Shown here: in pieces, positions 6,601-21,409 of the stretch
Numbering within the stretch: position 1 is the first letter of the stretch
How the letters are laid out: every line of letters begins with the position of its first letter
IMG/VR virus record: IMGVR_UViG_3300042397_001225
Span: 1-24,446 of that record
DNA length: 24,446 bases
Strand: one strand, 5' to 3'
From: a virus
Position numbers and translations under genes: made by a program
Notes under the pieces: generated by a model
Database searches by the model: none
What the model was told of the DNA's origin: nothing
What the model saw: the letters and a program-made list of their open reading frames with translations, nothing else

Positions 6601-7395
6601 TTAAATTTTGATAGTCTGCCTTAATTTGGTTAGATCAGCACACGTATAGTACTGGTAACTTGCTTTTAGATTGTCCGGCATTGGAATCTCGTGGATCAAT
6701 GCACCGTACTGATCAGCGTATTTCTTGGCGACATCCATAAAACTCATGGTTGTCCCCGTACCAATGTTCCATATTCCATTTTCTTTTACATCTTGTCTCA
6801 TGAATTGATACTGAACTTTAATTAACTCATCAACATGAACAAAATCACGACGCAAATTTTCGCTTCCTTCAAATACTTTTATTGTTCCAGTGGTTTCTGC
6901 TTGAAGTTTAAATTGGCAAAATGGACTTGCTTGTGTTCCCTTATGTTCTTCGCCTTCTGGACCATAAACATTAAAATAACGGAATCCATGACACTTACGA
7001 TGCGTTGGATGTTTTTCTACATAATGTTCGAATAGGTATTTTGACCAAGAGTATGGGCTACGTGGGTCAACAGGATCAGACTCTTTGAATCCAACACCAG
7101 AACCATATACACTAGCACTGCTAGCCCACTGCATATCCACATCATATTTTCTACATTCCTCGTATAACCACACCGAAAAGTCAACATTCTGTTTCATGAC
7201 TTGTGCAACATCACGTTCAGTGGTTGCACTAATAGCACCTAAATGAATAACCCAATCTAGCCCCTCAATACGTGGCATAAGATTTTCATCCCATTCATAC
7301 GTGATTATTTCATTTCGACCTTGACTAAAGTCTTGCCAAAATTTTTCAAATCGGCTACCTATAAAGCCTTTATTTCCTGTTATTAATATTTTCAA
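6601..7395 (-). CDS. hldD: ADP-L-glycero-D-manno-heptose 6-epimerase (HldD-like)
   Basis: An extended SDR of 264 residues. It has the Rossmann GNKGFIG (7-13) and the HldD hallmark ISATTERD near 55-62. The active-site Tyr and Lys are Y115-SWS-K119, and HKGTQAS at 151-157 carries the second catalytic Lys. GSENLRRDFVHVDE near 177-190 binds substrate. These blocks follow E. coli HldD closely. The enzyme inverts C6 of ADP-D-glycero-D-manno-heptose, the last step to the ADP-L,D-heptose of inner-core LPS. It stops at LTKLRQ, about 35 residues before the usual C-terminus (family length about 310). It overlaps the adenylyltransferase gene by 26 bases. Confidence 0.9.
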   Translation of the reverse strand: MKILITGNKGFIGSRFEKFWQDFSQGRNEIITYEWDENLMPRIEGLDWVIHLGAISATTERDVAQVMKQNVDFSVWLYEECRKYDVDMQWASSASVYGSGVGFKESDPVDPRSPYSWSKYLFEHYVEKHPTHRKCHGFRYFNVYGPEGEEHKGTQASPFCQFKLQAETTGTIKVFEGSENLRRDFVHVDELIKVQYQFMRQDVKENGIWNIGTGTTMSFMDVAKKYADQYGALIHEIPMPDNLKASYQYYTCADLTKLRQTIKI

Positions 7396-7777
7396 TTAAT
7401 TTACTCGTCGAATATCCACTTACTAAATCATAAAAAACAATCGTATTACAATATTGAGAACCAACTATTGGTTTGCCACTATAATCACTGCCCTTTACCA
7501 TTACATGAGGCTTATATAATTTACATATATGTTCTAATTCTTCTGCGGTATCAAATAACCAAACTGCATCTACTGATTTTAAATTATCCAAGTGAAATTT
7601 ACGATCTTCTTGCCGGTTAATTGGTCTGGTATCGCCTTTTAATTCTTTTACCCTACGATCAGAATCAATACAAACTAAAAGATAATCACCCAAACTTCTT
7701 GCATAATTAATCATTTCGATATGTCCACGATGAACAATATCAAAGGTACCATTAACAATTATTCTTCTGTTTATCAT
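7370..7777 (-). CDS. hldE2: D-glycero-beta-D-manno-heptose 1-phosphate adenylyltransferase (HldE2-like)
   Basis: A 135-residue cytidylyltransferase-fold protein. The nucleotide-binding HxGH signature is NGTFDIVHRGH at 9-19. RPINRQEDR lies in the middle and YSTSKLIE near the end, matching the C-terminal domain of bifunctional HldE. It would transfer AMP from ATP to D,D-heptose 1-phosphate. In most Gram-negatives this domain is fused to the kinase. Here it stands alone, separated from the kinase gene by the cupin and oxygenase-like genes. It overlaps both neighbours, so it is cotranslated with HldD. Confidence 0.85.
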   Translation of the reverse strand: MINRRIIVNGTFDIVHRGHIEMINYARSLGDYLLVCIDSDRRVKELKGDTRPINRQEDRKFHLDNLKSVDAVWLFDTAEELEHICKLYKPHVMVKGSDYSGKPIVGSQYCNTIVFYDLVSGYSTSKLIENINNRK

Positions 7778-8370
7778 TTTTTTATATATGGGTTAAACCA
7801 GTCTACTATATCAGCCCATTCACCAAAATAATTATGGAATCTTAAGCTAATAGTCCACCGTTGTTGATTGCTTTCATTGACTGCTTGATGTGGTGCACTA
7901 ACACGAATCAAAGTTGGTCCAACAAGTGTGTGACGCTCCACCTCTACCATTTTTGAATCGTCCATCTTTAAATAGTATATGTTATTAGTGTATTCACTGT
8001 CAATACAATTTTTTAAATCTTCACCATATTCATTTTTTGGTTTATACCAAATAGTATATGAATCGGGGATAGAATCTTTTACCCAATTAATTACAACAGG
8101 ATTAAAATTTAAACTAGAACTATCTGTGTGAATCACTGTGCGAAAACCAGGCATAGTTAAAAATATATACATTGATTCAAGTTCTAGATTATTTTTCTTA
8201 GACCATTTTACTATTTCTGGATTTGTTATATTTAAAAGATCATTACCACGATAATCCCATACTCGTGCAATTCTAGGATCATCAAACTTTAAACTAGTCG
8301 ATGGTTCTGGAAATACGAAATCAGATTTTAATGGATTTTCAAAAAAATCTAATTCAAAAAAATTTTTCAT
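7774..8370 (-). CDS. 2OG-Fe(II) oxygenase-like protein
   Basis: A 198-residue protein with a likely double-stranded beta-helix core. An H-x-D pair (H81, D83 in VIHTDSSSLNFNP) is followed about 80 residues later by APHQAVNES (H161) and RWTISLRF (R171). This spacing fits the Fe(II) triad and 2-oxoglutarate Arg of small hydroxylases. A strand DSYTIWYKPK between them fits the same fold. The gene overlaps HldE2 and the cupin gene by four bases each, so it probably acts on the same sugar or its acceptor. A catalytically inactive cupin-type relative is possible. Family call moderate, substrate unknown. Confidence 0.55.
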   Translation of the reverse strand: MKNFFELDFFENPLKSDFVFPEPSTSLKFDDPRIARVWDYRGNDLLNITNPEIVKWSKKNNLELESMYIFLTMPGFRTVIHTDSSSLNFNPVVINWVKDSIPDSYTIWYKPKNEYGEDLKNCIDSEYTNNIYYLKMDDSKMVEVERHTLVGPTLIRVSAPHQAVNESNQQRWTISLRFHNYFGEWADIVDWFNPYIKK

Positions 8371-8729
8371 TTTTGATTGTCGCCTGGCAGTACACGATAA
8401 TTGTCTTCAACACTATCTGGCGTTGAAACTTCAATAATTGTACCAGCTTCAATGCATATCAATTGATGAGGTAACAACGGTGGATTGTGCCATGTATCGC
8501 CAGTACGTAAAATAGTTTCATGTTGAGAAGCATTTTTTGTATCTATTGTTTTAACAATAAAAGTCCCACTCAGTACATACCATGTCTCATCTTTTTCTGA
8601 ATGAAAATGCATACTAAATTTTGCCCCTTGATTAAAGGTCATCATTTTTCCACAATATTTGTCGTTAGTGCACCAAATTAATTCGTTACCCCAACCTTTT
8701 TCTACAAATCCTTCAAGCCTTGTACTCAT
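8367..8729 (-). CDS. Cupin protein, sugar-phosphate isomerase-like
   Basis: A 120-residue single-domain cupin. Motif 1 is textbook: G35-x5-H41-x-H43-x4-E48-x6-G55. Motif 2 starts at G77 and supplies the fourth ligand, H88, in LLPHQL. The end VEDNYRVLPGD and the first block WGNELIW recall the cupin domains of mannose-6-phosphate isomerase-type proteins. An isomerase or epimerase acting on a sugar phosphate or nucleotide sugar is the natural reading. Position between kinase and adenylyltransferase genes, overlapping the kinase by 17 bases, ties it to the heptose pathway. Whether it replaces a missing heptose step is speculation. Confidence 0.75.
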   Translation of the reverse strand: MSTRLEGFVEKGWGNELIWCTNDKYCGKMMTFNQGAKFSMHFHSEKDETWYVLSGTFIVKTIDTKNASQHETILRTGDTWHNPPLLPHQLICIEAGTIIEVSTPDSVEDNYRVLPGDNQK

Positions 8730-9453
8730 TATTAATCTCCATTACTGTTGGACTATAAACTCCAACATGTTGTATTGTAACACTTGCAGCCCTAACTGCA
8801 AAATTAATTGCTTTTAAAATATCTTTAGTAATTACATATTCGTATGTAAGGGCAGATAAAAAGGTATCGCCAGCACCACACACATCAAACGCTTCTACCT
8901 GCGGGGTAGATATTTCATGTTCCTTATACTTGACTCCATTTCTGCCCAATGTGACAATAAGTTCAGTGGGGTACGTTTTTGCTGCTTCATATTCAACTTG
9001 ATTTATTTTTACATAGCAGCCTTCAAAACGTTTTAAGTCAGTTTTTTTGGTATCAACAAAAATAGGACCGTTATATCTATGTCGTAGATTTTCTACAGTA
9101 TCATAATCTACGCTTCCTTTATTGTAATCACTAACAACTATTGCGTCATACTGATCTATATCAGTGTAGTCAATTTTTACAGCACGACTAGGTGCGTCTT
9201 GATCTATCCTTACTAAGTGTTGTTTGGTGCGTTCATCAATTACTCTAGTTTTGATACATGTTTTAATACCATGTACAAAATTTACATCACATCCTAACTT
9301 CTCTAAATTATCTCGAACGTTAGCCGCCATACCAGGTTTGGTAACGGTATGTGTGTAATTAACCACAGGCACTGGTGCTTCTGGGCTAATACGATTTACA
9401 ATTCCATATTGATATTGATCAATACCATTGTCGCCAATTAAAAGTATTTTCAT
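8713..9453 (-). CDS. hldE1: D-glycero-beta-D-manno-heptose-7-phosphate kinase (HldE1-like)
   Basis: A PfkB/ribokinase-family kinase. From ATG 9453 (246 residues) it starts KILLIGDNGIDQYQYG, then NRISPEAPVPV, the HldE substrate segment. It later has RIDQD, VVSDYNKG and the anion-hole and catalytic-base motif DVCGAGDTF (Asp 196). It would phosphorylate D,D-heptose 7-phosphate at C1. About 25 residues are missing after VHG compared with E. coli HldE, and the adenylyltransferase half is a separate gene. I chose 9453 because it follows the upstream TAA by one base. An in-frame ATG at 9495 would add 14 residues and overlap that gene. Neither has a clear Shine-Dalgarno. Confidence 0.85.
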   Translation of the reverse strand: MKILLIGDNGIDQYQYGIVNRISPEAPVPVVNYTHTVTKPGMAANVRDNLEKLGCDVNFVHGIKTCIKTRVIDERTKQHLVRIDQDAPSRAVKIDYTDIDQYDAIVVSDYNKGSVDYDTVENLRHRYNGPIFVDTKKTDLKRFEGCYVKINQVEYEAAKTYPTELIVTLGRNGVKYKEHEISTPQVEAFDVCGAGDTFLSALTYEYVITKDILKAINFAVRAASVTIQHVGVYSPTVMEINNEYKA

Positions 9454-9454
9454 T

Positions 9455-10210
9455 TTAGAAGTACTGGCAGTTATCTCTGGGGAAATAGCATTCATTATTT
9501 TGTAGTGGTTTAATTTTAATCGTTTCTAGAACAGAACTTTTCCCCAATCCCATTGCTATACTATATGCTGCACTTTGGTTGCCCATAAACAAATCTGCAC
9601 CCGCAATAACATCAGATAATTCTTTAAAGTCTTTAACTGGATAATATGAAATATCAAATCCAGTAGATTTTTGAAAATCTTCGTGTTCTTCTTTAGTTCC
9701 TACAAAAATGCCATTTTGTGTAATATTAGCTTGTTCTAATAGTCCTTGCCATGCCCTTGTGCCGTTAGGACAACGATATCTGAATGTACGATTTATTACT
9801 ACTGAAGCCACTGGTTTTGGATCAGCTTCTAACCATGTTTCGTTATACATGTCTGGAGTAAATGGTATGCTAAATGTTCTATGATAGGCTTCAACATAGT
9901 TGCCCTCAAATCCTCTAAACAGTACACCACGAAAACGATCCAAGTCTACTGCAACTTCGTTTTCATTCCATACTTTTACATCAGTAATATAATTTTGTCT
10001 TTCCAAGAATGGTAACAATAATTGAAAGTCTTTATTAGAAAACCTACCTCGATGTTCTGGTGAGACCTCTTCTGGCTTATATCCATATTTTGAAACACAC
10101 TTTTCTATATTGCCCAATGCAATTGCAAAAGTTCCTGCACCCATTTTTTTAATTACACTTAGGCTATAAATTAAATCCCCAAATGTTCCTGAATGTTTGT
10201 ATATTGTCAT
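9455..10210 (-). CDS. GT-B glycosyltransferase, GT9-like (NQS variant)
   Basis: A 251-residue protein. The N-terminus GTFGDLIYSLSVIKKMG matches the G-D-x-I-x-S loop of GT9-type enzymes. Near the C-terminus, where heptosyltransferases have DSGxxHxA, it reads GNQSAAYSIAMGLGK. A middle segment gives a second Rossmann-like half (NGIFVGTKEEHEDF). This NQS variant is familiar from phage and bacterial sugar clusters and is usually labelled glycosyltransferase. Loss of the Asp and His may mean another donor or a non-catalytic role. It overlaps the zinc-ribbon gene by ATGA and abuts the kinase gene. Confidence 0.6.
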   Translation of the reverse strand: MTIYKHSGTFGDLIYSLSVIKKMGAGTFAIALGNIEKCVSKYGYKPEEVSPEHRGRFSNKDFQLLLPFLERQNYITDVKVWNENEVAVDLDRFRGVLFRGFEGNYVEAYHRTFSIPFTPDMYNETWLEADPKPVASVVINRTFRYRCPNGTRAWQGLLEQANITQNGIFVGTKEEHEDFQKSTGFDISYYPVKDFKELSDVIAGADLFMGNQSAAYSIAMGLGKSSVLETIKIKPLQNNECYFPRDNCQYF

Positions 10211-10428: not shown

Positions 10429-11294
10429 AAGTAGTTTAAAATTGCTGTGCTTATTTCGTTAGCATTAAAATTATCTTTACAACGAAAATCTCCATACTTA
10501 CAAATAACCTGTCTAATTGGTCTAATCTGTGTATCGTTACACCCCACACAATCAACATTTGATAAAATAGGAGTTACTAACTTATTTTGTGGAATAATCC
10601 TATCCGGCAACAGATGTGTATGTAATGAAACAAAATTAGTTGTAGCACAACTAGCAATATGATACGGACCAGAATCAATGCCGACAAAACAAGCAGCGTT
10701 GTCCATTAATAGTTTTTGTTGTTGAATGCTAAATTTATCCCTAGCATCGACAAATAACGGATGATCTACATATCCATCTTGGATAGTACCTACACACAGA
10801 ATCTTAAAATCTGTACGTTCAGTAAACAACTGTTCAAAAACTGTATACCAAGTATCCCACGACATATTCTTTAATTCCCAATACCATTGACGAATGTGAA
10901 CGACAATATATTTGTCAATTTCATTATCTTGATAAAACGAATTTAAGATATCTTTGTCAAATTCTGTCGGGAAGAGTTCTGGGTTTTTAACCATTGCTGA
11001 TGTGCCAAAAGCACGATAAAAATAACTGTCAACATAATGGTTAAGAGGATTGCGTTCGTAGGCATCATCCAAATTAATATACAAATCGTAGTTAGCAATA
11101 TCCGGCATTGCGTTTGTATGATAGATAGCCCTAACATTAGGATTATTATCAAATACATTCGGAAACTCTGTAGCAACATCAATGTCACAGTTATAACGAT
11201 ATTTTAGTTCACGAACAACACCAGTGCTCATAATCACATCACCCAATGCTGCATGTCTACGAACTAAAATTTGAATTGGTTTTTCAATGTTCAA
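10425..11294 (-). CDS. Glycosyltransferase family 9, heptosyltransferase-like
   Basis: A 289-residue GT-B enzyme. The N-terminal HAALGDVIMSTGVVREL (14-30) and the C-terminal FVGIDSGPYHIAS (203-215, with D207, G209 and H212) are the signature pair of ADP-heptose:LPS heptosyltransferases. The family is usually 320-350 residues; this one is somewhat short. The last 50 residues add a cluster VDCVGCND with ICKYGDFRC, which may bind a metal. With HldE1, HldE2 and HldD in the same operon, ADP-heptose is the most likely donor. It overlaps the C-methyltransferase gene by 11 bases. Acceptor unknown. Confidence 0.8.
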   Translation of the reverse strand: MNIEKPIQILVRRHAALGDVIMSTGVVRELKYRYNCDIDVATEFPNVFDNNPNVRAIYHTNAMPDIANYDLYINLDDAYERNPLNHYVDSYFYRAFGTSAMVKNPELFPTEFDKDILNSFYQDNEIDKYIVVHIRQWYWELKNMSWDTWYTVFEQLFTERTDFKILCVGTIQDGYVDHPLFVDARDKFSIQQQKLLMDNAACFVGIDSGPYHIASCATTNFVSLHTHLLPDRIIPQNKLVTPILSNVDCVGCNDTQIRPIRQVICKYGDFRCKDNFNANEISTAILNYL

Positions 11295-12492
11295 TGATTA
11301 CCTCTGGAAAATATTTTAAGAATCTATCATTATGATTCGAGCGTTTTTGTTGAATTTTATTTTTAATTTCTGAATACACATTCCATGCAAGTGGTACAAA
11401 AAGAATTTTATCTGTACTAGCAAATGTGTCAATTATAGAAGAACCCACAACAGGAATATCTCTACCAGGACTATATGTATTTTGTTTTAATGGATTATCA
11501 TCTATAATATAGTCCAAAGATATATTTGCATAATTTAAAAGTGTATTTCCTTTGGCAGCAGCACCGTATCCCACAAGCTTAAAATCATTATTTCTATATT
11601 GTTCACAAATATGAAGAAAATTTTCAGTTAATGTTTCAGCCGTATGTTTCCATGTTTTGTAAATTTTTTTATCAAGCAAATCTTTTTCTAATTCTATTAA
11701 ATTTTTTATATGCTCGGTTCTTCCAGTATTTCCTATAACAAACACATAACTAGTTCCATGTATCGGTGTTTTTATTACATCTAGTAATCCCAAACCAGCA
11801 CGTTTACATAATTCATTCATAGAATTAATATTATAAAAATTTACATGCTCATGATAGATAGTATCAAATTCGCCGTTACGAACCATATCTGCTTGACTAG
11901 TTTGAACAAAGAATAATCCACGTTCTTTTAATAAAGGTTTTAATAACTTCAAGTATGTAAGTGGATCAGGATTGTGTGCAAAAGCATTTTGCGACACGAC
12001 TATATCAAATTGCCTGTTGTCCAGATTCCCTATAGATTGTTCGTTCCAAAATCCACAAACTACTCGATGCCCTTTTGCTGTGCTTGTTGCATGAATATTT
12101 TCTGCAGGATCTACTCCGTAAGTTAAAAATCCTAACTTTTCAAAATAATCGAGTTGACTTCCATCATTACATCCAATATCCAATACACTGCCAAATTGCG
12201 TTTTACTGTATTCTCTTGTCCATTTTGCAAACCAAAACATATAATCTAGATATGTTTGGCTTGTTCCACTTACATATGCATAGTTTTTATAAATTATACT
12301 TGGATCAACAACGTGAGTTAATTGCAAATGATAACAGTTATTACATAAATTTACTTCTAACGGATAAAAATCATTACTGTTTGGTTCTTTAAGAAAATTA
12401 TTAGCTAATGGTTGATTTCCTAAATTTATGGCTGACGTTAATTTGTCACTACCACATGCTAAACAATTTAATAATTCACGACAATTATCCAT
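11284..12492 (-). CDS. SAM-dependent deoxysugar C-methyltransferase (NovU/TcaB9 type)
   Basis: A 402-residue, three-part enzyme. The N-terminal zinc domain has C10-LAC13 and C50-NNC53. The SAM fold has VLDIGCNDGS (103-112) and GVDPA. The active-site loop TIYHEHVNFY (211-220) carries the His/Glu pair of the family. A C-terminal Rossmann-like domain (GYGAAAKGNTLLNY, YIIDDNPLKQNTYSPG) completes the architecture. Full-length relatives add a methyl group at C3 of a 4-keto-6-deoxy sugar nucleotide. That fits the 4,6-dehydratase upstream and predicts a methyl-branched sugar. Shine-Dalgarno AAGGA precedes ATG 12492. Confidence 0.85.
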   Translation of the reverse strand: MDNCRELLNCLACGSDKLTSAINLGNQPLANNFLKEPNSNDFYPLEVNLCNNCYHLQLTHVVDPSIIYKNYAYVSGTSQTYLDYMFWFAKWTREYSKTQFGSVLDIGCNDGSQLDYFEKLGFLTYGVDPAENIHATSTAKGHRVVCGFWNEQSIGNLDNRQFDIVVSQNAFAHNPDPLTYLKLLKPLLKERGLFFVQTSQADMVRNGEFDTIYHEHVNFYNINSMNELCKRAGLGLLDVIKTPIHGTSYVFVIGNTGRTEHIKNLIELEKDLLDKKIYKTWKHTAETLTENFLHICEQYRNNDFKLVGYGAAAKGNTLLNYANISLDYIIDDNPLKQNTYSPGRDIPVVGSSIIDTFASTDKILFVPLAWNVYSEIKNKIQQKRSNHNDRFLKYFPEVIIEH

Positions 12493-12493
12493 A

Positions 12494-13204
12494 TTAGTTC
12501 CTTATAGCTACGCCATTGGGTGCTATGCTACCTTCTACCCCAAGAACTGGGATTTCCGTGACTAATTCCGAAGGTAAAAATTTATACAGTACATGTTCAA
12601 TATCTGCATACCCACCCTGACTTACACGTTGTCCAATATAGTCTAAGCTATCTTTGTATACTTGAATAACTCGTTCAGTTTGATTGACTGGCCAAGACCA
12701 CAGCCGTGCCATGTATTGCAATTCAATACCAGTAATCTCATATGGAAATTGACTTTGATTTTTTGGACCGATAATAATGCGATCAGGGAGTTCTTCATAA
12801 ACTTCTAAATTAAATTCATTGTTTAACACATATCGACCAGACATTTTGTGGATTCTATCTATGTCTGCAAAGTCACCATCATCTTGACACATACGCAACG
12901 CACGACCAAAACACATAATTTCTGTAGAATTTTTAACTACATCCCAATTATCACTTTTATAAATTTCAATAACATCAGGGTCTTTACTAAAGTCTAATAG
13001 TAAATCACAATTTTCTTCTATAAGTGAACTTTGTGCATCAGTTAATGGTGTACCCGCACATTCCATAACAATAATTTTACAATTTGGAACTCGTGCACGT
13101 ACATTTTGCAACGTGGTAATAGTTTGCTGTAAACGTGCTGCTGGACTATAAACTCCAAATTTACTATTAACAGCAGAAGTAACTACAAAACAATGTTTAA
13201 TCAT
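12494..13204 (-). CDS. Putative glycosyltransferase-like protein (KMSGRY motif)
   Basis: A 236-residue protein. It opens with a hydrophobic strand HCFVVTSAVN, then a helix and KIIVMECAG, as in GT-A folds. RIHKMSGRYVLNNEFNLE lies near residue 117. An R/K-x-SGRY element is seen in WavE-type LPS biosynthesis proteins and similar glycosyltransferases. No clear DxD is visible; DFADID may serve. The end (PVLGVEGSIAPNG) resembles the tail of such proteins. It starts inside the TGA of the dehydratase gene (ATGA). A sugar-transfer role is inferred mostly from context. Confidence 0.5.
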   Translation of the reverse strand: MIKHCFVVTSAVNSKFGVYSPAARLQQTITTLQNVRARVPNCKIIVMECAGTPLTDAQSSLIEENCDLLLDFSKDPDVIEIYKSDNWDVVKNSTEIMCFGRALRMCQDDGDFADIDRIHKMSGRYVLNNEFNLEVYEELPDRIIIGPKNQSQFPYEITGIELQYMARLWSWPVNQTERVIQVYKDSLDYIGQRVSQGGYADIEHVLYKFLPSELVTEIPVLGVEGSIAPNGVAIRN

Positions 13205-14235
13205 TTACGTAACCATCTTTCATTTACCAACGTCCAGTCAACCATTTCTTTTATTCTTTCACTTAATTTAATTTTTGGTTCCCAACCAAGTGATTTGAGT
13301 AGTCCGCCATCGAGTGCATAACGCATATCATGACCGGGACGTGAACTATGAAAATCTACCATTTCATAGTTCAATGGTTTTCCAACAGCGGCGGCAATCA
13401 TTTGTGCTAGTGTGAGATTATCAATTTCTTCAGTTCCAACTAAATTAAATTTAGGACAATGTGCACCCCCATAATCACCAGTATGCATATAATTTTTTAA
13501 ATTAAGTATAAACATAAGACCTTCAGCTACATCTTTTGCATGTATATACATTCTACTTCCGGCTTGAGTTTTTGTTGGGTCACTGTGTATCACTACTAAT
13601 TCGCCATCTCTTGCTTTCTGAATAGTGGCAGGAATGAATTTTTCTGGGTGTTGTCGTTCACCAAATACATTCATTGTGTGAGTCACGATGATAGGCATTT
13701 TGTAAGTATTTTCATACGCCACACAAAATTCTTCTGCGGCTGCTTTGCTTGCACTATAAGGATTAGTTGAATTGTATCTATCGTATTCTTTATAAGCCAC
13801 ACCAGGCGGTGCAACTCCATATATCTCGTCGGTAGAAAAGTATACAAACTTTTCCAGATTTGGTAAGTTTTTCCTTGCATAGTCCAACATATTGACGGTA
13901 CCAACTACATTGTCCTGTACAAATTCCATAGGATAAGTGATTGAACGATCCACATGACTACCAGCAGCAAGATGCAAAACAATATCGACATGCCCAATAT
14001 CTTGGACAATTTGACTATTAATTTCTGCTTTAAGATCGTGAAATATAATTCTTACACGTTTTGATATTTCTTTTGAATCATAATTTTTTAAAACATCATA
14101 TAATCGATTCAAATTGCCAGAAATATCAAGTCTATCTAAACTTACAATATTCCAGTCAGTATCTCGTAAAATTTTATCGATAACGTGATGGGCGATGAAT
14201 CCTGCACCGCCAGTGATTAAAACTGTTTTTGACAT
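13201..14235 (-). CDS. dTDP/UDP-glucose 4,6-dehydratase-like SDR
   Basis: A 344-residue extended SDR with Rossmann GGAGFIA (9-15, last Gly replaced by Ala), AAGSHVDRS and FSTDEIYG (133-140). The catalytic Asp136-Glu137 pair is typical of 4,6-dehydratases, and Y160-SAS-K164 completes the active site. HTMNVFGERQHPEKFIP and RPGHDMRY are the substrate and C-terminal blocks. It would turn a nucleotide-glucose into its 4-keto-6-deoxy form, the substrate for the C-methyltransferase two genes down. THTMN instead of RxxNxYG-P is nearer to UDP-sugar or plant-type enzymes than to RmlB. ATG 14235 has GGAG upstream. Confidence 0.85.
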   Translation of the reverse strand: MSKTVLITGGAGFIAHHVIDKILRDTDWNIVSLDRLDISGNLNRLYDVLKNYDSKEISKRVRIIFHDLKAEINSQIVQDIGHVDIVLHLAAGSHVDRSITYPMEFVQDNVVGTVNMLDYARKNLPNLEKFVYFSTDEIYGVAPPGVAYKEYDRYNSTNPYSASKAAAEEFCVAYENTYKMPIIVTHTMNVFGERQHPEKFIPATIQKARDGELVVIHSDPTKTQAGSRMYIHAKDVAEGLMFILNLKNYMHTGDYGGAHCPKFNLVGTEEIDNLTLAQMIAAAVGKPLNYEMVDFHSSRPGHDMRYALDGGLLKSLGWEPKIKLSERIKEMVDWTLVNERWLRK

Positions 14236-14277: not shown

Positions 14278-14306
14278 ATTATAGCATTGCAGGAAGGTAT
14301 TGTCTA
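14278..14306 (-). promoter_or_regulatory. Sigma70-type promoter TAGACA-N17-TATAAT
   Basis: On the minus strand TAGACA (14306-14301), 17 bases and TATAAT (14283-14278) lie over the stop codon region of the GT17-like gene. It matches 11 of 12 consensus bases. The start would be near 14271, about 36 bases before the dehydratase ATG, so the sugar operon may be transcribed from here. Confidence 0.7.
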
Positions 14307-15142
14307 GCTGATTTTACCATCTTGTCTAAAATTAAACCATTTTTAAATTCTTCGATATTGTTAATTATAGTTTTGGGGAAATAATCATCGACCGCAACTG
14401 GAGTAAAACGATAATCTTCATTTGTTCTAATTATCCCAACCCCACGTTGAATACTATCTTCAACATTTAATTGATCCAAAACTTCAGGTTTGTTAGTTTC
14501 ATCATGTGCAAAACTTTGAATTTTAGTACGTGCAAATTCTTCATTACCCATATATGTAAAATGCCATCCTGCGTGTTCAACAATTTGAACATTACTATCA
14601 CTAAAATTATATGGACATTCATTTAATATATGTCGCATGCGACGAAAATCTTCTGGGCTTCCAAGTGCACTTCTTCGTATAGCACCAGACCAAACTGAAT
14701 AGTAGTCCTGTGTATACATCATATAGTTGTATTTGAAATTAAACAGAGGCATTCTAAATCCCCAAATAGATTGGGTACTTTCACGTAATTTGTGAATAGT
14801 TTCCACACGTGGAATTTCATCAACATCCCCGATCATAATAATATCATCGGGTTCTGCGTGAGATAAAAGACCCTGTAATATGGCATCACGTTGATGCCGT
14901 TCTCTGCCCCATGGATCGGTGTCTTCTGGCATGTCAACTATCCGAACATTAATTATTTTGTCTAACCATTTTCCAAATCGTTCATGTGCTTGTTGAGTAA
15001 AATACAAAGGTTTGTCTTTATTTTGGAATGTTTTATTGGCTTCGACTAAAACAAAATAATCTACGTGATCATATAACTCACGTAGTCTGAGTTCTAGTAG
15101 GTCAAACTCATTAAAAAAGGTAAAACAATCATAGATTTTCAT
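14279..15142 (-). CDS. Glycosyltransferase family 17-like protein
   Basis: From ATG 15142 the product has 287 residues and begins KIYDCFTFFNEFDLLELRL, then VLVEANKTFQNKDKP. A metal-binding DxD is seen in IGDVDEIPR, the family's most typical block. SGAIRRSALGSPEDFR and GWHFTYMGN follow. These match GT17, named for the mammalian beta-1,4-N-acetylglucosaminyltransferase III, with many bacterial and phage members. The frame is open to an ATG at 15211, but those extra 23 residues are unrelated to the family and would cross into the opposite gene. It is divergent from the plus-strand block across 49 bases. Confidence 0.8.
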   Translation of the reverse strand: MKIYDCFTFFNEFDLLELRLRELYDHVDYFVLVEANKTFQNKDKPLYFTQQAHERFGKWLDKIINVRIVDMPEDTDPWGRERHQRDAILQGLLSHAEPDDIIMIGDVDEIPRVETIHKLRESTQSIWGFRMPLFNFKYNYMMYTQDYYSVWSGAIRRSALGSPEDFRRMRHILNECPYNFSDSNVQIVEHAGWHFTYMGNEEFARTKIQSFAHDETNKPEVLDQLNVEDSIQRGVGIIRTNEDYRFTPVAVDDYFPKTIINNIEEFKNGLILDKMVKSARQYLPAML

Positions 15143-15154
15143 AGTAGTATATAG

Positions 15155-15191: not shown

Positions 15192-15833
15192 ATGTACGCA
15201 GTTGCCAGCAACCACGATGATAATTACGCCGATCTTGCTGCTATCACTGATCGATCAAAACAAGAATACTGCAACATTCATGGGTATAAGTTTTTTGTTC
15301 TGACAGAACTTAAGTATAGCACAATCGTCGGCTTTAACAAAATACATTTTGCCCTAGAGTTATTTAAACAACATCCAGAAATAGAATGGCTTCTATTTTC
15401 CGAGTGCGATGCAATGATTACCAACTTAACAATACCAATTGAAGAACGTATTGACAATGATTACCATTTTATTATTCCAGTAGATAGGCTTAATCTAAAT
15501 TCCGGCAACTTTCTTGTTAGAAATTCAGAACAAGGTCGTGCATACTTACAAATGATTATAGATAAAGAATCAGATTATGCAAAAGTAGAATGGGCTGAAC
15601 AACAAGTCATTATTGACACATTGGAAGAATATCAAGATATTATCAAAATTGTACCACAAAAATATATGAATAGTTATGAACCACAAATTTATGACTATTG
15701 TGATGCACGTTTTGATATATTAGGCAATAGTGGTGCATGGGAACCAGGCGATTGGATAGTACATTGGCCTGGAACTTACAAACCTGCACGATTAGAACGT
15801 GCTGCTTATCATACTGCGAACTTAATGAAATGA
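15192..15833 (+). CDS. Glycosyltransferase, GT34 (GMA12/MNN10)-like
   Basis: A 213-residue GT-A protein beginning the plus-strand operon, with AAGGAG a few bases before ATG 15192. It has FALELFKQHPEIEWLLFSECDA (split here: FALELFK, WLLFSECDAMITN near 67-78), the family's DxD strand with Glu-Cys-Asp. NLNSGNFLVRNS near 101-112 and DWIVHWPGT near the end are also typical. GT34 members transfer galactose, mannose or xylose in eukaryotes; the phage and bacterial relatives are uncharacterised. Its TGA overlaps the next gene's ATG. Donor and acceptor unknown. Confidence 0.75.
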   Translation: MYAVASNHDDNYADLAAITDRSKQEYCNIHGYKFFVLTELKYSTIVGFNKIHFALELFKQHPEIEWLLFSECDAMITNLTIPIEERIDNDYHFIIPVDRLNLNSGNFLVRNSEQGRAYLQMIIDKESDYAKVEWAEQQVIIDTLEEYQDIIKIVPQKYMNSYEPQIYDYCDARFDILGNSGAWEPGDWIVHWPGTYKPARLERAAYHTANLMK

Positions 15834-16672
15834 AAATATTCATTACCGGATCAACAGGTTTTGTTGGAAAAAACCTAGTGAACTATTATTCTCAGCGTGG
15901 ACACGAAGTTTACGCATTTCAACGAGATGAAGATTTATCTGAGAGACTGCGTTACTTTACTCCGGACGCAATTATCAATTCGGCCGCAGAAATTTATGAC
16001 TTAGAGTATATGTTTGAACCAAATATATTAATGGTACAAACTATTTTAGACTATGTAAAAAATTGTGAACAGTGGTGTCGTGTAGTACAAATAGGGTCAA
16101 GTAGCGAATATGGTCCTACCGATCACCCAACTGCTGAAGATACACTACTTAAACCTGTAGACTTTTATCAAGCAACCAAAGGTGCTGCTACATTACTATG
16201 CCAAGGTTGGGCACGTTATTTAAATTTACCAATATGGATAGTTCGACCTTATAGTGTATACGGACCCGGTGAACGCCCACATAGATTGTTTCCTAGATTG
16301 TACAAAGCTTTTTATCATGATGAACCTATGACCCTATATCAAGGTCATCACGATTTCATTTATATAAATGATTTTGTTAGGGGAATTGATTTGGTTTTAC
16401 AAGAATGGGACTTAGAACCAGGTGAAATTGTTAACTTTGGTAGTGGATTTCAAACAAGTAACTTTGAGTTACTTGATTTATGGACTAAAATAACAGACAA
16501 CACTGAAGCACCAGTAGCCAAAGTAGCAGAAATGAAAAAGGCATTTGAAAACACAGTATGGGTCTGTGACACAGCAAAATCTGTTAACTTAGGATTTAAC
16601 TGCGAATACGATCTAGAAACAGGAATTAGAGATTTTTTATTAAAGGCAAAATATGATAGAACGAACACTTAA
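15830..16672 (+). CDS. NAD-dependent sugar epimerase/dehydratase (SDR)
   Basis: From ATG 15830 (ATGA overlap with the preceding stop) the product has 280 residues. It starts with the Rossmann GSTGFVG (7-13). It has INSAAE, the active-site IGSSSEYG (Ser91-Ser92-Glu93-Tyr94) and Y113-QAT-K117, then RPYSVYGPGERP and HDFIYINDFVRG. SSSEYG resembles GDP-mannose 4,6-dehydratases and GDP-6-deoxy-4-keto reductases; the Glu is where dehydratases carry their acid. It may be a dehydratase, reductase or epimerase; the sequence does not decide. An upstream in-frame ATG at 15737 lies inside the other gene and is rejected. Confidence 0.75.
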   Translation: MKIFITGSTGFVGKNLVNYYSQRGHEVYAFQRDEDLSERLRYFTPDAIINSAAEIYDLEYMFEPNILMVQTILDYVKNCEQWCRVVQIGSSSEYGPTDHPTAEDTLLKPVDFYQATKGAATLLCQGWARYLNLPIWIVRPYSVYGPGERPHRLFPRLYKAFYHDEPMTLYQGHHDFIYINDFVRGIDLVLQEWDLEPGEIVNFGSGFQTSNFELLDLWTKITDNTEAPVAKVAEMKKAFENTVWVCDTAKSVNLGFNCEYDLETGIRDFLLKAKYDRTNT

Positions 16673-17360
16673 AACAAGTAAACAAAAAGATTTTACTTAT
16701 CAAAGCAGACATCCAGATGTGACTGCATGGTTTGGTAATCCAGAAAATTACACTGATGTTATATTAAAACAAATTAATGAAGAACGCATGTACGATCCTA
16801 TTTTTAAAGATAGAGATAATATGATCGTACTAGACTTAGGTGCTAATTGTGGATTGTTTAGTTTATATGCCGCTGATAGTTGTGAGCGTCTAATATCTGT
16901 TGAACCAACCCCCTCAACATATAACGTACTGCAAGAAATTGTAAAAGATCATACAAATATTACCCCTTTGCAACTTGCTATTGGTCCACATAATGAATTG
17001 ATTTCATTTTTTATTAACGAAAATAGTACTACAAATAGTATGTTAAATCGCAACGGTATGGAAACTAAAGTGCAATGTATGACATTAGAAACTTTACTGC
17101 ATATGCAAGGACTGGATCATGTAGACTTTATTAAATGTGATATTGAAGGTTCGGAAATGCAAGCACTAACAGATGAAACACTTAGCCCAATTGCAAACAA
17201 AGTAAATTTTTGGTTTGTCGAAGTTCATCAAACCAATGTAGACAAAGAAGCATGGCCTGGTAATTTAGAATCTAATAGACAACAGCTTGCTGAACTGTTT
17301 GAACGACACGGATATAAAACTGAACCAGTAATACACGACCAATTATATGCTTGGAAATGA
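16653..17360 (+). CDS. FkbM-family methyltransferase
   Basis: A 235-residue SAM-dependent enzyme. Motif I is VLDLGANCGLFSLYAA (59-74), followed by ISVEPTPSTY and the FkbM hallmark DFIKCDIEGSE around residue 155. FWFVEVHQ is the next strand. FkbM proteins O-methylate sugars and polyketides and are frequent in phage and bacterial glycan clusters. It overlaps the SDR gene by 20 bases. It probably caps or decorates the sugar made by its neighbours, possibly to shield it from receptors or enzymes; that part is inference. Confidence 0.85.
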   Translation: MIERTLKTSKQKDFTYQSRHPDVTAWFGNPENYTDVILKQINEERMYDPIFKDRDNMIVLDLGANCGLFSLYAADSCERLISVEPTPSTYNVLQEIVKDHTNITPLQLAIGPHNELISFFINENSTTNSMLNRNGMETKVQCMTLETLLHMQGLDHVDFIKCDIEGSEMQALTDETLSPIANKVNFWFVEVHQTNVDKEAWPGNLESNRQQLAELFERHGYKTEPVIHDQLYAWK

Positions 17361-17361
17361 T

Positions 17362-17976
17362 ATGACTCCCACTGAACGCCGATTGATTGATATTACATAC
17401 CAAGAACGGTTAAGTCATCTAAGCTCAACGCTAAGTGCGTTACCTATTATAGAAGAAATATACGCTAAGAAAAAAGATGACGAAGTTTTTATTCTTAGCA
17501 ACGGTCATGCAGGACTTGCTCTATACGTGGTACTAGAAAAGTATCACGGAGTAGATCCGGTTGCTATGCTTCACAAACATGGGATCCATCCAGGTAGAGA
17601 CATGAAAAATCACCTGTATTGTAGCACAGGCAGTCTTGGTTCAGGGTTACCTATCGCAGTTGGACACGCACTAGCAAAACCAGAGCAGCAAGTTTACTGC
17701 ATGATCAGTGACGGAGAAGCTGCCGAAGGTAGTATTTGGGAGTCACTACGTTTTATCAATGATAATAAAATTGATAATCTTCATGTGTATGCAAACTTAA
17801 ATGGTATGGGTGCTTACGATATGATCGATACTGTGTCATTAAGTCATAGACTAATTGCGTTCTTACCCAGAATTAATATTAGGTATAGTTATCCCCCAGA
17901 ATGGTCATTTGCTAAAAATTTATTAACTCATTATTATGTACTAAAACCAGAAGATTATGAGGAGATAACGCAATGA
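17362..17976 (+). CDS. Transketolase N-terminal (TPP-binding) subunit, short
   Basis: From ATG 17362 the product has 204 residues. It carries SNGHAG (46-51), TGSLGSGLPIAVGHA (89-103) and the TPP/Mg signature SDGEAAEG (116-123) with Asn145 and Asn147 in VYANLN. These are the diphosphate-binding elements of transketolase. The usual separate N-terminal subunit has about 270 residues, so this is a reduced form. The partner domain is the next gene, overlapping by ATGA, and the two should form one active site. An ATG at 17347 would add five residues and overlap the FkbM gene; 17362 follows that stop by one base. Confidence 0.85.
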   Translation: MTPTERRLIDITYQERLSHLSSTLSALPIIEEIYAKKKDDEVFILSNGHAGLALYVVLEKYHGVDPVAMLHKHGIHPGRDMKNHLYCSTGSLGSGLPIAVGHALAKPEQQVYCMISDGEAAEGSIWESLRFINDNKIDNLHVYANLNGMGAYDMIDTVSLSHRLIAFLPRINIRYSYPPEWSFAKNLLTHYYVLKPEDYEEITQ

Positions 17977-18455
17977 GAAAAGAATGTGCAATGCTTCTAT
18001 TAGAAAGCATGGTTGAGGATCCTAGTATTCGTGTTATTACCGCTGACTTAGGATTTGGTATATTAGATCAAATACGCAATGCTTTCCCTGATCGTTTTTA
18101 TAATGTAGGTGCAGCCGAACATTTAATGATTGGTGTTGCAATTGGTATGGCTAACGAAGGATTAAAACCTGTCTGCTATAGCATGAGTAGTTTCCTACTA
18201 TATCGTCCGTTTGAAATGCTACGCAATTATGTTAGCTATGAAAACGTACCTGTCAAACTTATTGGTAGTGGACGTGATAAAGATTATAGTCATGATGGCG
18301 TTAGTCATTGGGCACACGACGACGAACTAGTCTTAAAGGCATTACCAAACATTGGGTGCTTTAAACCTGGCAGTATAATAGATTTAGAAAATATTTGGGA
18401 TAGATTTATTAATAGCAATACCCCAGAATATCTTAACTTGACAAGAAAAATATGA
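17973..18455 (+). CDS. Transketolase pyrimidine-binding subunit, lacking C-terminal domain
   Basis: A 160-residue protein with GAGGAG eight bases before ATG 17973. RFYNVGAAEHLMIGVAIGMA (42-60) contains the TPP-activating Glu (E49; AEH where transketolases have AEQ). SHDGVSHWAHDD near 95-106 and CFKPGS match the pyrimidine domain. It ends right after this domain, without the third (transketolase C) domain of about 120 residues. With the preceding gene it gives a minimal two-protein ketol-transferase. Possible jobs are making sedoheptulose 7-phosphate or attaching a two-carbon unit to a 4-keto sugar. The fold is sure, the reaction is not. Confidence 0.85.
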   Translation: MRKECAMLLLESMVEDPSIRVITADLGFGILDQIRNAFPDRFYNVGAAEHLMIGVAIGMANEGLKPVCYSMSSFLLYRPFEMLRNYVSYENVPVKLIGSGRDKDYSHDGVSHWAHDDELVLKALPNIGCFKPGSIIDLENIWDRFINSNTPEYLNLTRKI

Positions 18456-19402
18456 GCACAAAAGTAGTTTATGTAACAGGTTGTTTAGGATTTATCGGAT
18501 ATCACGTAACACAGGCTTGTTTAGATGCTGGTTATTATGTAATCGGTGTTGATAAAAAGACCTATGCTGCAAATATACAATTTCTTCCTAAGTTAGCAAC
18601 AAGTAAACAGTTTAAATTTATTGAATCAGATATCAACGATCTTGATATGCTATACGACTGCGATTATATTATTAACACCGCAGCAGAAACGCATGTAGAT
18701 AATAGTATTGTTAGTAGTGATGTGTTTTTACGAAGTAATGTAAATGGCGTACATCATTTACTCAATCTTATCAAAGAACGTCACCGTTTTAAAATGCCAA
18801 CATTGTTACACTTTAGTACCGACGAAGTATACGGAGATATTGTTGATGGCAGTCATATTGAAACAGATTTATTAAAACCAAGTAATCCATATAGTGCTAC
18901 CAAGGCAGCAGCAGATCAACTAATACTCGCATGGGCACGTACTTTTAATGTTCCATATGTAATTGTTAGACCAACAAATAATTATGGAATTGGACAATAT
19001 ACAGAAAAGTTTATTCCTAAAAGTATAAAAAGTCTGCAACTAGGAAGAATTATTCCGCTACATGATGAAGGGAAACCACGCCGAACTTGGTTACATGTTA
19101 GTGATACAGCAACAGCTATTATAAGAATAATTGAATCTAATGTTCAAAATGAAATTTACAATATATCAGGAAATTACGAAGAACAGAATATCGTCATAGC
19201 AAGACAAATAGTAAATTTATTTCATAATAAAATTACCGATTTAGATGCACATCTTGATCTTAGTATTACTAGACCAGGACAAGATGTAAGATATAGCATT
19301 AACGACAACAAGCTTAAAGCACTTGGGTGGAAACCACAAGCCGTGTTTGAAGTCGAACTTACTAAAATTGTTGAGTATTATTCTCGGACGTTTGTGTGGT
19401 AA
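18452..19402 (+). CDS. dTDP-glucose 4,6-dehydratase-like SDR (RmlB-like)
   Basis: A 316-residue extended SDR: Rossmann TGCLGFIG (9-16), AAETHVDNSI (78-86), HFSTDEVYGD with T123, D124 and E125, Y147-SAT-K151, RPTNNYGIGQYTEKFIP, RTWLHVSD and TRPGQDVRY. All are typical of RmlB, so a 4-keto-6-deoxy nucleotide sugar is the likely product. It is closer to canonical RmlB than the SDR at 13201-14235. The start overlaps the transketolase stop (ATGA). Its 3' end runs 41 bases into the 3' end of the opposite-strand DUF2452 gene. Confidence 0.88.
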   Translation: MSTKVVYVTGCLGFIGYHVTQACLDAGYYVIGVDKKTYAANIQFLPKLATSKQFKFIESDINDLDMLYDCDYIINTAAETHVDNSIVSSDVFLRSNVNGVHHLLNLIKERHRFKMPTLLHFSTDEVYGDIVDGSHIETDLLKPSNPYSATKAAADQLILAWARTFNVPYVIVRPTNNYGIGQYTEKFIPKSIKSLQLGRIIPLHDEGKPRRTWLHVSDTATAIIRIIESNVQNEIYNISGNYEEQNIVIARQIVNLFHNKITDLDAHLDLSITRPGQDVRYSINDNKLKALGWKPQAVFEVELTKIVEYYSRTFVW

Positions 19403-20533: not shown

Positions 20534-20562
20534 ATTGTAGACTAAAACTTAAATTTTGTCAA
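20534..20562 (-). promoter_or_regulatory. Sigma70-type promoter TTGACA-N17-TACAAT for the tRNA
   Basis: On the minus strand TTGACA (20562-20557), 17 bases and TACAAT (20539-20534) match 11 of 12 consensus bases. The start would be near 20527, about six bases before the tRNA. The -35 box lies in the last codons of the radical SAM gene. Confidence 0.8.
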
Positions 20563-21409
20563 CTACTAAAGCATCGGTACAACTTTTACATAAACTTTTA
20601 TCGGAGTAACAACTTTTTGAGTTTTCTCTTATTAAATTTACCATTCCCTCTCCGGTAAACATATCTTCATAACTTTGAGTTACCATATTACCTAAAATAT
20701 GTTTGGCATCGTAATCCATACAGCACAATACTATATCACCGTTTGGTAAAAGAACATGCTGATCGTAGTTTATTGTTTTAGAGCACACAATTGGTTTTTC
20801 GTGCTTTGAAATAAAATTAATAGGTTGTTCTTTTACTTGCTCTTTATTAAGACTGCCAGCACGATCATGCCCAAACCAATTATATAATTGAATTCCCAAA
20901 TGCTGTAAGTCTTGATGTATTTTTCCATGATCACTCATAGTCATTGCTTCCAATTTTATTCCCATTTGTTGAACTCCATTACTCATCAAATGAAAAACTT
21001 TTTCCCATTCTTCACTATATTTCCAACCTTTCATATTACCGTATTCGTCTGGAAAATGAATACTAAACACTTCGACTTGTTTTCGGTGTTTGTTAAGCAA
21101 ATTTAACACCTCACGTGCAGTATTTTCAGTCCAATTGTACAGTGTGGTATACACAGCAACATTTCTGCCTGACTGTAAAGTATATTCTAACATAGCGGTG
21201 CAGTCCGGATTGACCCAAGCTTCAGCCATTCCAGAAAAATCAATCCTACAATTCTGCGGCAGCTTGTTAATCACAGTTTTAAATGTATCCAATGACATAT
21301 ATTTTGGAGATTCTTTACCGTAAGCATCTCGTAAGTTATCCTGTGGGCAAAAGTTGCACATTAACGGACAGCCAATCATTGTTGTTATTTCTAAAGTAGG
21401 TCTTTGCAT
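20549..21409 (-). CDS. Radical SAM protein with SPASM-like C-terminus
   Basis: A 286-residue protein with the [4Fe-4S]-SAM motif C14-PLM-C18-NF-C21 right after a strand LEITTMIGC. RIDFSGMAEAWVNPD follows, as in SPASM/twitch radical SAM enzymes. The C-terminus has cysteines in IVCSKT, DIVLCCMDYD, SCYSDKSLCKSC, enough for an auxiliary cluster. LPNGDIVLCC is a typical SPASM entry. Such enzymes modify peptides, sugars or cofactors by radical chemistry; they recur in T4-like phages without known substrate. No peptide substrate is obvious next to it. A late-type word AATAAATA lies upstream of the ATG. Confidence 0.85.
   Translation of the reverse strand: MQRPTLEITTMIGCPLMCNFCPQDNLRDAYGKESPKYMSLDTFKTVINKLPQNCRIDFSGMAEAWVNPDCTAMLEYTLQSGRNVAVYTTLYNWTENTAREVLNLLNKHRKQVEVFSIHFPDEYGNMKGWKYSEEWEKVFHLMSNGVQQMGIKLEAMTMSDHGKIHQDLQHLGIQLYNWFGHDRAGSLNKEQVKEQPINFISKHEKPIVCSKTINYDQHVLLPNGDIVLCCMDYDAKHILGNMVTQSYEDMFTGEGMVNLIRENSKSCYSDKSLCKSCTDALVVDKI

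Follow-up and report, generated by a model that had tools for sequence, protein, structure and literature searches.

Two overlapping genes on a phage fragment were found to encode a new variant of split-gene transketolase, which is real and well conserved. The best-supported role for this enzyme, at about even odds or slightly better, is the synthesis of a branched sugar. The whole fragment, a virus record from IMG/VR that is 24,446 bases long, is referred to below as the window. UvsX- and UvsY-like genes are present in the window; the UvsX shares 69% identity with its counterpart in the jumbo phages GAP32 and CBB. Five related records (51-357 kb) contain a Gp23 capsid gene of T4 type, indicating that the parents are T4-type phages, several of them of jumbo size. 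The window is a fragment of such a T4-type phage, probably a jumbo phage. The two genes are located as follows.

17362..17976, + strand: ThDP/pyrophosphate-binding (PP) chain of the split transketolase, 204 aa
17973..18455, + strand: pyrimidine-binding (Pyr) chain, 160 aa, without third domain

As described in an earlier note on this DNA, the open reading frames of 204 and 160 residues overlap, by the 4 bases ATGA. Each chain was assigned by Pfam, PDB profile search, AF2 modelling, Foldseek and alignment. The PP chain matched the Pfam families TPP_enzyme_C (3.5e-6) and Transketolase_N (1.7e-5), exceeding the gathering score in each case, and the Pyr chain matched Transket_pyr (1.7e-20). When a profile of the Pyr chain was searched against PDB, the C-chain of the split transketolase from Carboxydothermus (ChTK; 6YAJ) was the sole sequence at <=1e-15, with 1.3e-23; the PP-chain profile retrieved human transketolase and, with 5.5e-17, the N-chain of ChTK. 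Single-chain AF2 models reached pLDDT of 92.8 for the PP chain and 88.0 for the Pyr chain, of which the loop 106-112 was the less confident part. The best Foldseek matches of these models were the N-chain of 6YAK for the PP chain and 6YAJ for the Pyr chain.

The third (TKC) domain is absent, as the earlier note had claimed: no Transketolase_C match was obtained by Pfam search, and no TKC open reading frame was detected among the neighbouring window genes examined. At 160 aa, the Pyr chain extends no further than the Pyr domain of ChTK-C, which comprises residues 1-162 (PMC7661550), indicating that the third domain is missing and not merely split off. The PP chain is also about 70 residues shorter than ChTK-N, and the region of ChTK K240 is missing. 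Domain, residue, fold and comparative evidence altogether give good support to the description of the pair as a minimal split transketolase. Orthology to a dehydrogenase E1, the outcome named in that note as speaking against it, was not observed, since matches to transketolase and DXPS rank ahead of those to E1. Three other identities were ruled out: E1 dehydrogenase of the alphaKADH2 type by sequence and fold matches, both chains being nearest to transketolase; DXPS by its matches and by an invariant His76, which is Phe in DXPS; and a single-chain decarboxylase of the YerE type by the presence here of two transketolase-type chains.

Residue conservation was read from alignments of 16 diverse members per chain. 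Among these members, H19, H49, H76, H190, D117, G118, E119 and N147 are invariant in the PP chain, and R2, E49, F74, R101 and H112 in the Pyr chain; the catalytic Glu49 is therefore kept across the family, in agreement with the earlier note. The residues of ChTK, with its ThDP site as described (PMC7661550), were then mapped to the phage chains through HMMER alignments. ChTK-N H70, G117, L119, D148, G149, E150 and N178 correspond to the invariant H49, G90, L92, D117, G118, E119 and N147, and the catalytic Glu and stacking Phe of ChTK-C, E55 and F80, to the invariant E49 and F74 of the Pyr chain. ChTK K68 is not kept, being replaced by N47 in the PP chain. The (G)DG...N metal motif is found as SDG(116-118)...N147, in which D117, G118 and N147 are invariant and the first Gly is Ser. 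Incompleteness of the TPP site had been considered as another outcome against the pair; this was not observed at the residue level, the ThDP-site residues being present.

The donor-site residues H66, H100, G114 and H473 (E. coli numbering as in PMC7661550) correspond to H49, H76, G90 and H112, all invariant. The position of E. coli H100 is Phe in DXPS and controls the use of hydroxylated versus pyruvate donors, and mutation of H100 in transketolase permits pyruvate as a donor (PMC7661550). From the invariant His76 at this position, a hydroxy-ketose is predicted as the donor. The position of E. coli His461, a phosphate-binding residue, is Gly100 in the phage family and is followed by the invariant Arg101, suggesting a different acceptor or donor end. 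At the position of E. coli D469, which shapes the acceptor preference of E. coli transketolase, stands D108 of the Pyr chain, and this residue is Asp in most members.

We examined the distribution of the pair by two scans of viral contigs, which yielded 23 and 50 loci, or 55 distinct contigs after removal of duplicates and not counting the window. Both chains lie side by side in all 55, with some PP chains cut by contig ends. Relative to the window, the PP chains of the first scan share 68-86% identity and the Pyr chains of the second 46-94%. With dN of 0.05-0.20 and dS near saturation, the pair is under strongly purifying selection, and its conservation is far beyond chance. Among phage isolate records no close relative of the pair was found; the relatives returned for cultured phages were weak matches of 24-36% identity, mostly from unannotated gut metagenome contigs and bacterial-looking records, and were rejected. 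In the openly accessible literature, we found no report of a phage split transketolase.

The minimal pair is rare in cellular genomes. One scan of these genomes yielded ten loci, of which nine were real relatives. Most of these came from Patescibacteria MAGs, the rest from single MAGs of Omnitrophota and Bacteroidales and from some phage-like contigs in other MAGs. By profile search, a Pyr chain of the minimal form, in open frames of 171-189 aa, was detected in 3 of 380 genomes in the phylum of the Levyibacteriota genome and in 4 of 237 in that of the Omnitrophota genome; the next-best matches in these phyla were full-length chains of 309-329 aa with an adjacent PP chain and often also with the same SDR family. 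Of the nine genomes that carry the minimal pair, seven additionally have a longer match of the transketolase-family Pyr type, indicating that the pair is not the housekeeping enzyme there. Among individual loci, a TylF-like methyltransferase gene lies between the PP and Pyr genes in a Roizmanbacteria MAG (L081, 9974-11725), and the PP gene of L086 (742-1466) is apparently split into two frames of 106 and 133 aa, perhaps by sequencing error or decay. A near-identical phage-like order of glycosyltransferase, split-transketolase pair, SDR, RfbH and RmlB-like gene was observed in a Thaumarchaeota MAG (L077) and a Maricaulis MAG (L078); these contigs are probably viral and binned with the wrong organism.

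Around the pair, the window carries the following sugar-related genes.

11284..12492, - strand: sugar C-methyltransferase of a divergent operon (Methyltransf_13/23/14 architecture)
13201..14235, - strand: second RmlB-like 4,6-dehydratase, 344 aa, of the divergent operon
14279..15145, - strand: GT17-like glycosyltransferase of the same cluster on the divergent strand (Pfam PF04724, 2.6e-30)
15192..15833, + strand: GT34-like glycosyltransferase, a recurrent neighbour (Pfam PF05637, 1.4e-20)
15830..16672, + strand: SDR, designated SDR4, 280 aa counted from ATG 15830; it carries the motifs GSSSEYG and YxxxK and is a predicted keto-sugar reductase
16653..17360, + strand: FkbM-type O-methyltransferase, a usual neighbour of the pair (Pfam PF05050, 1.2e-16)
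18452..19402, + strand: RmlB-like NDP-sugar 4,6-dehydratase, 316 aa, with STDEVYG and YxxxK kept; its TIGR01181 score of 284 bits does not reach the equivalog cut-off

The order in the window is thus GT34, SDR4, FkbM methyltransferase, PP chain, Pyr chain and RmlB-like gene. The glycan operon of the earlier note stands as a sugar cluster, although, the window being a virus fragment, the term operon is to be read as a phage glycan cluster. That an RmlB-like dehydratase directly follows the pair holds for the window, where its gene overlaps the Pyr gene by 4 bases, and the same overlap is seen in many relatives; it is a usual neighbour but not always the next gene in relatives. By profile assignment, an RmlB-like gene lies nearby in 49 of the 55 viral contigs (in a few contigs, L019, L062 and L065, it was not found near the pair), and SDR4 lies upstream in 49 of the 51 that hold upstream sequence. 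SDR4 is the most constant partner of the pair. The same SDR family adjoins the minimal pair, as well as the full-length split relatives, in Patescibacteria and Omnitrophota, and no RmlB-like gene was seen within range of the loci in these two groups.

The motif STDEVYG is kept in 51 of 51 RmlB-like proteins, and these neighbours score below the cut-off for dTDP-glucose dehydratase. In SDR4, YxxxK and GSS(S/A)EYG were found in 49 of 54; this motif resembles one of GDP-4-keto-6-deoxymannose reductases, and 2PK3, the structure of one such reductase, was among the SDR4 matches. A nucleotidyltransferase for the sugar was not recognised in the window, so that the host may have to supply the NDP-sugar. 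The divergent operon (11284-14235, - strand) consists of the C-methyltransferase, a 236-aa protein without Pfam match and the second RmlB-like dehydratase. This C-methyltransferase cluster faces the split-transketolase operon in many related contigs, hinting at a methyl-branched sugar as well. A radical-SAM-like protein (20549-21409, - strand) is a conserved neighbour of the cluster in 41 of the loci studied.

Of the two roles that the earlier note had proposed, a C2-branched sugar is the better supported, since the pair travels with genes for an SDR reductase, a 4,6-dehydratase and sometimes RfbH; the chemistry is what we infer from these neighbours. With a probability of roughly 0.55, the pair takes a hydroxyacetyl (C2) unit from a ketose phosphate and transfers it onto a 4-keto sugar that is bound to a nucleotide, followed by reduction by SDR4. 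The two gene products would together make up a single heteromeric ThDP enzyme, a transketolase of which only the two catalytic domains remain, with PP and Pyr chains paired, probably in an alpha2beta2 tetramer like ChTK, and ThDP bound at the interface. A host ketose phosphate (xylulose 5-P, fructose 6-P or similar) would be cleaved and the dihydroxyethyl-ThDP carbanion kept. The acceptor would be not an aldose phosphate but the ketone of an NDP-4-keto-6-deoxysugar supplied by the adjacent RmlB-like dehydratase, in some phages probably after 3-deoxygenation by RfbH. The predicted product is a 4-C-hydroxyacetyl (octose-type) sugar, of which SDR4 would reduce the branch ketone; YerF is thought to act likewise on yersiniose. 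The sugar could then be O-methylated by FkbM- or TylF-type enzymes and transferred by the glycosyltransferases to a host-surface or virion glycan.

RfbH is the 3-dehydrase of 3,6-dideoxyhexoses. It was detected near the pair in 8 of the 55 viral contigs, and above the curated cut-off in 5 of 24 long records and in L078. When set as a label on the tree of the pair, cellular loci included, RfbH takes four changes. The phage copies that were read carry SFYPAHH and four Cys (GRGCYC...C-G-T-C-like), and their Fe-S cluster ligands look kept. The substrate of YerE, a ThDP enzyme of Yersinia, is CDP-3,6-dideoxy-4-keto-glucose (PMC12247030). Together with this precedent, the action of RfbH on 4-keto-6-deoxysugars favours a C2-branched, O-methylated, 6-deoxy sugar. 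The yersiniose-type neighbourhood with RfbH, like the two-chain layout shared with alphaKADH2, would also suit a C2 transferase that uses pyruvate, that is, an acetyl-branching enzyme similar to YerE or to alphaKADH2 of aldgamycin and kibdelomycin. We regard this as very improbable, because both chains are nearest to transketolase and not to E1 or AHAS, and because the His at the E. coli H100 position, invariant here, is Phe in the pyruvate-using DXPS.

The presence of RfbH was compared with the residue at the D469 position. Where Asp108 is replaced by Leu, RfbH lies nearby in six of seven rows (the first copies of L020 and L021, and L073, L074, L077 and L078, but not L079). Since this represents two independent changes on the tree, and since RfbH is also found in four contigs of the Asp type (L053, L055, L057 and L066), the link between Leu at D108 and RfbH is only suggestive. 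Two copies of the split-transketolase pair are contained in one operon of L020 and L021 (~4.5-9.1 kb); the first directly follows RfbH and has Leu at the D469 position, and the second follows SDR4 and has Asp.

The other role in the earlier note was the supply of sedoheptulose 7-phosphate (S7P) to a heptose module, located in the window as follows.

6601-9495, - strand: heptose module, with HldD-like gene (6601-7395), heptose-1-P adenylyltransferase-like gene (7370-7777) and shortened HldE-type kinase gene (8713-9495)

A 198-aa gene (7774-8370) and a cupin-like gene (8367-8729) also lie within this module. None of the heptose genes reaches the NCBIfam equivalog cut-offs, and neither GmhA nor GmhB was recognised in the window. 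GmhA consumes S7P. It was found in none of 24 long related viral records of up to 357 kb, and clear RfaE2 and HldD were found in 3 of the 24; as most of these records are fragments, the co-occurrence is to be read as statistical and not absolute. If it served heptose synthesis, the pair should follow the heptose genes, but it is conserved without them, and supply of the module is not supported. An ordinary transketolase, either feeding S7P to the phage's own ADP-heptose genes or boosting the pentose phosphate pathway, is thus an unlikely explanation. The retained transketolase active-site residues, D108 included, would fit an ordinary hydroxyaldehyde acceptor, the heptose genes do lie in the same window, and a virome survey listed tkt with the virome-associated genes and assigned it to the pentose phosphate pathway (Roux et al. 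2013; PMC3877843). Against this stand not only the missing heptose genes but also the replaced phosphate-site His and the tie of the pair to SDR and RmlB-like genes; in addition, the hosts are expected to own a transketolase.

A glycan-cluster transketolase might instead act on another acceptor, either an aldehyde or a keto sugar oxidised by SDR4 at a different carbon, with the RmlB-like enzyme serving a different sugar. For miharamycin, the oxidoreductase preceding the split transketolase was proposed to oxidise the sugar (PMC12247030). SDR4 could run as oxidase or reductase, is as constant in phages as the RmlB-like gene, and occurs in cellular loci without RmlB. In the window as well as in many relatives, however, the RmlB-like gene is translationally coupled to that of the Pyr chain, the co-occurrence of RfbH points to a 4-keto-6-deoxysugar route, and the GSSSEYG motif of SDR4 resembles that of the reductases of GDP-4-keto-6-deoxymannose. 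Another acceptor is therefore rather improbable, if slightly less so than ordinary transketolase activity.

Transfer of the C2 unit to a 4-keto sugar has parallels in proposals that split transketolases branch keto sugars in miharamycin and amipurimycin, although in vitro acceptance of a ketone has so far been demonstrated for no split transketolase (PMC12247030). It is an even bet that T4-type jumbo phages widely encode a transketolase of two genes and two domains that forms C-C bonds on the ketones of nucleotide sugars and so builds hydroxyacetyl-branched (octose-type) sugars for a glycan directed by the phage. If so, the pair would be a natural transketolase without any TKC domain that acts on a ketone, and some of what is now assigned to pentose phosphate metabolism as viral transketolase could belong to glycan chemistry. 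It would also suggest that jumbo phages make surface sugars of unusual chemistry. Enzymes that add carbon branches to ketones are scarce and sought after. A compact enzyme of 204+160 aa, conserved in dozens of phage contigs beside its probable dehydratase, reductase and methyltransferase, offers a direct test case.

The pair was finally compared with known ThDP enzymes. DXPS has a Pyr domain similar to the phage chain, giving the next-best PDB matches, but is a single chain of three domains with Phe at the donor position, in contrast to the two chains and His of the phage pair. The alphaKADH2 enzymes (KbDH and the aldgamycin enzymes) are also two-chain ThDP enzymes and form acetyl-branched sugars, but are of E1 type with pyruvate as donor, whereas the phage pair has transketolase-type residues and best matches. 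The yersiniose system of Yersinia O-antigen would be alike in placing a ThDP-bound C2 unit on a 4-keto (3,6-dideoxy) sugar, with RfbH and SDR reduction; its YerE is, however, a single-chain, AHAS-like decarboxylase using pyruvate, and is not homologous at the family level. The split transketolases of Streptomyces for miharamycin and amipurimycin resemble the pair in gene setting, a keto-sugar cluster with adjacent sugar oxidoreductases; they belong to secondary metabolism, and their hydroxyacetyl transfer to a keto sugar is a proposal (PMC12247030). The closest solved relative is the split transketolase of Carboxydothermus hydrogenoformans (6YAJ/6YAK, PMC7661550), which likewise carries PP and Pyr chains on separate genes, with the same fold and matching ThDP, metal and donor residues. 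ChTK differs in the TKC domain of ChTK-C (residues 164-312) and in the longer ChTK-N, both extensions being absent from the phage pair, which in turn has Gly at the E. coli H461 position, followed by an invariant Arg, and resides in a glycan cluster of phages.
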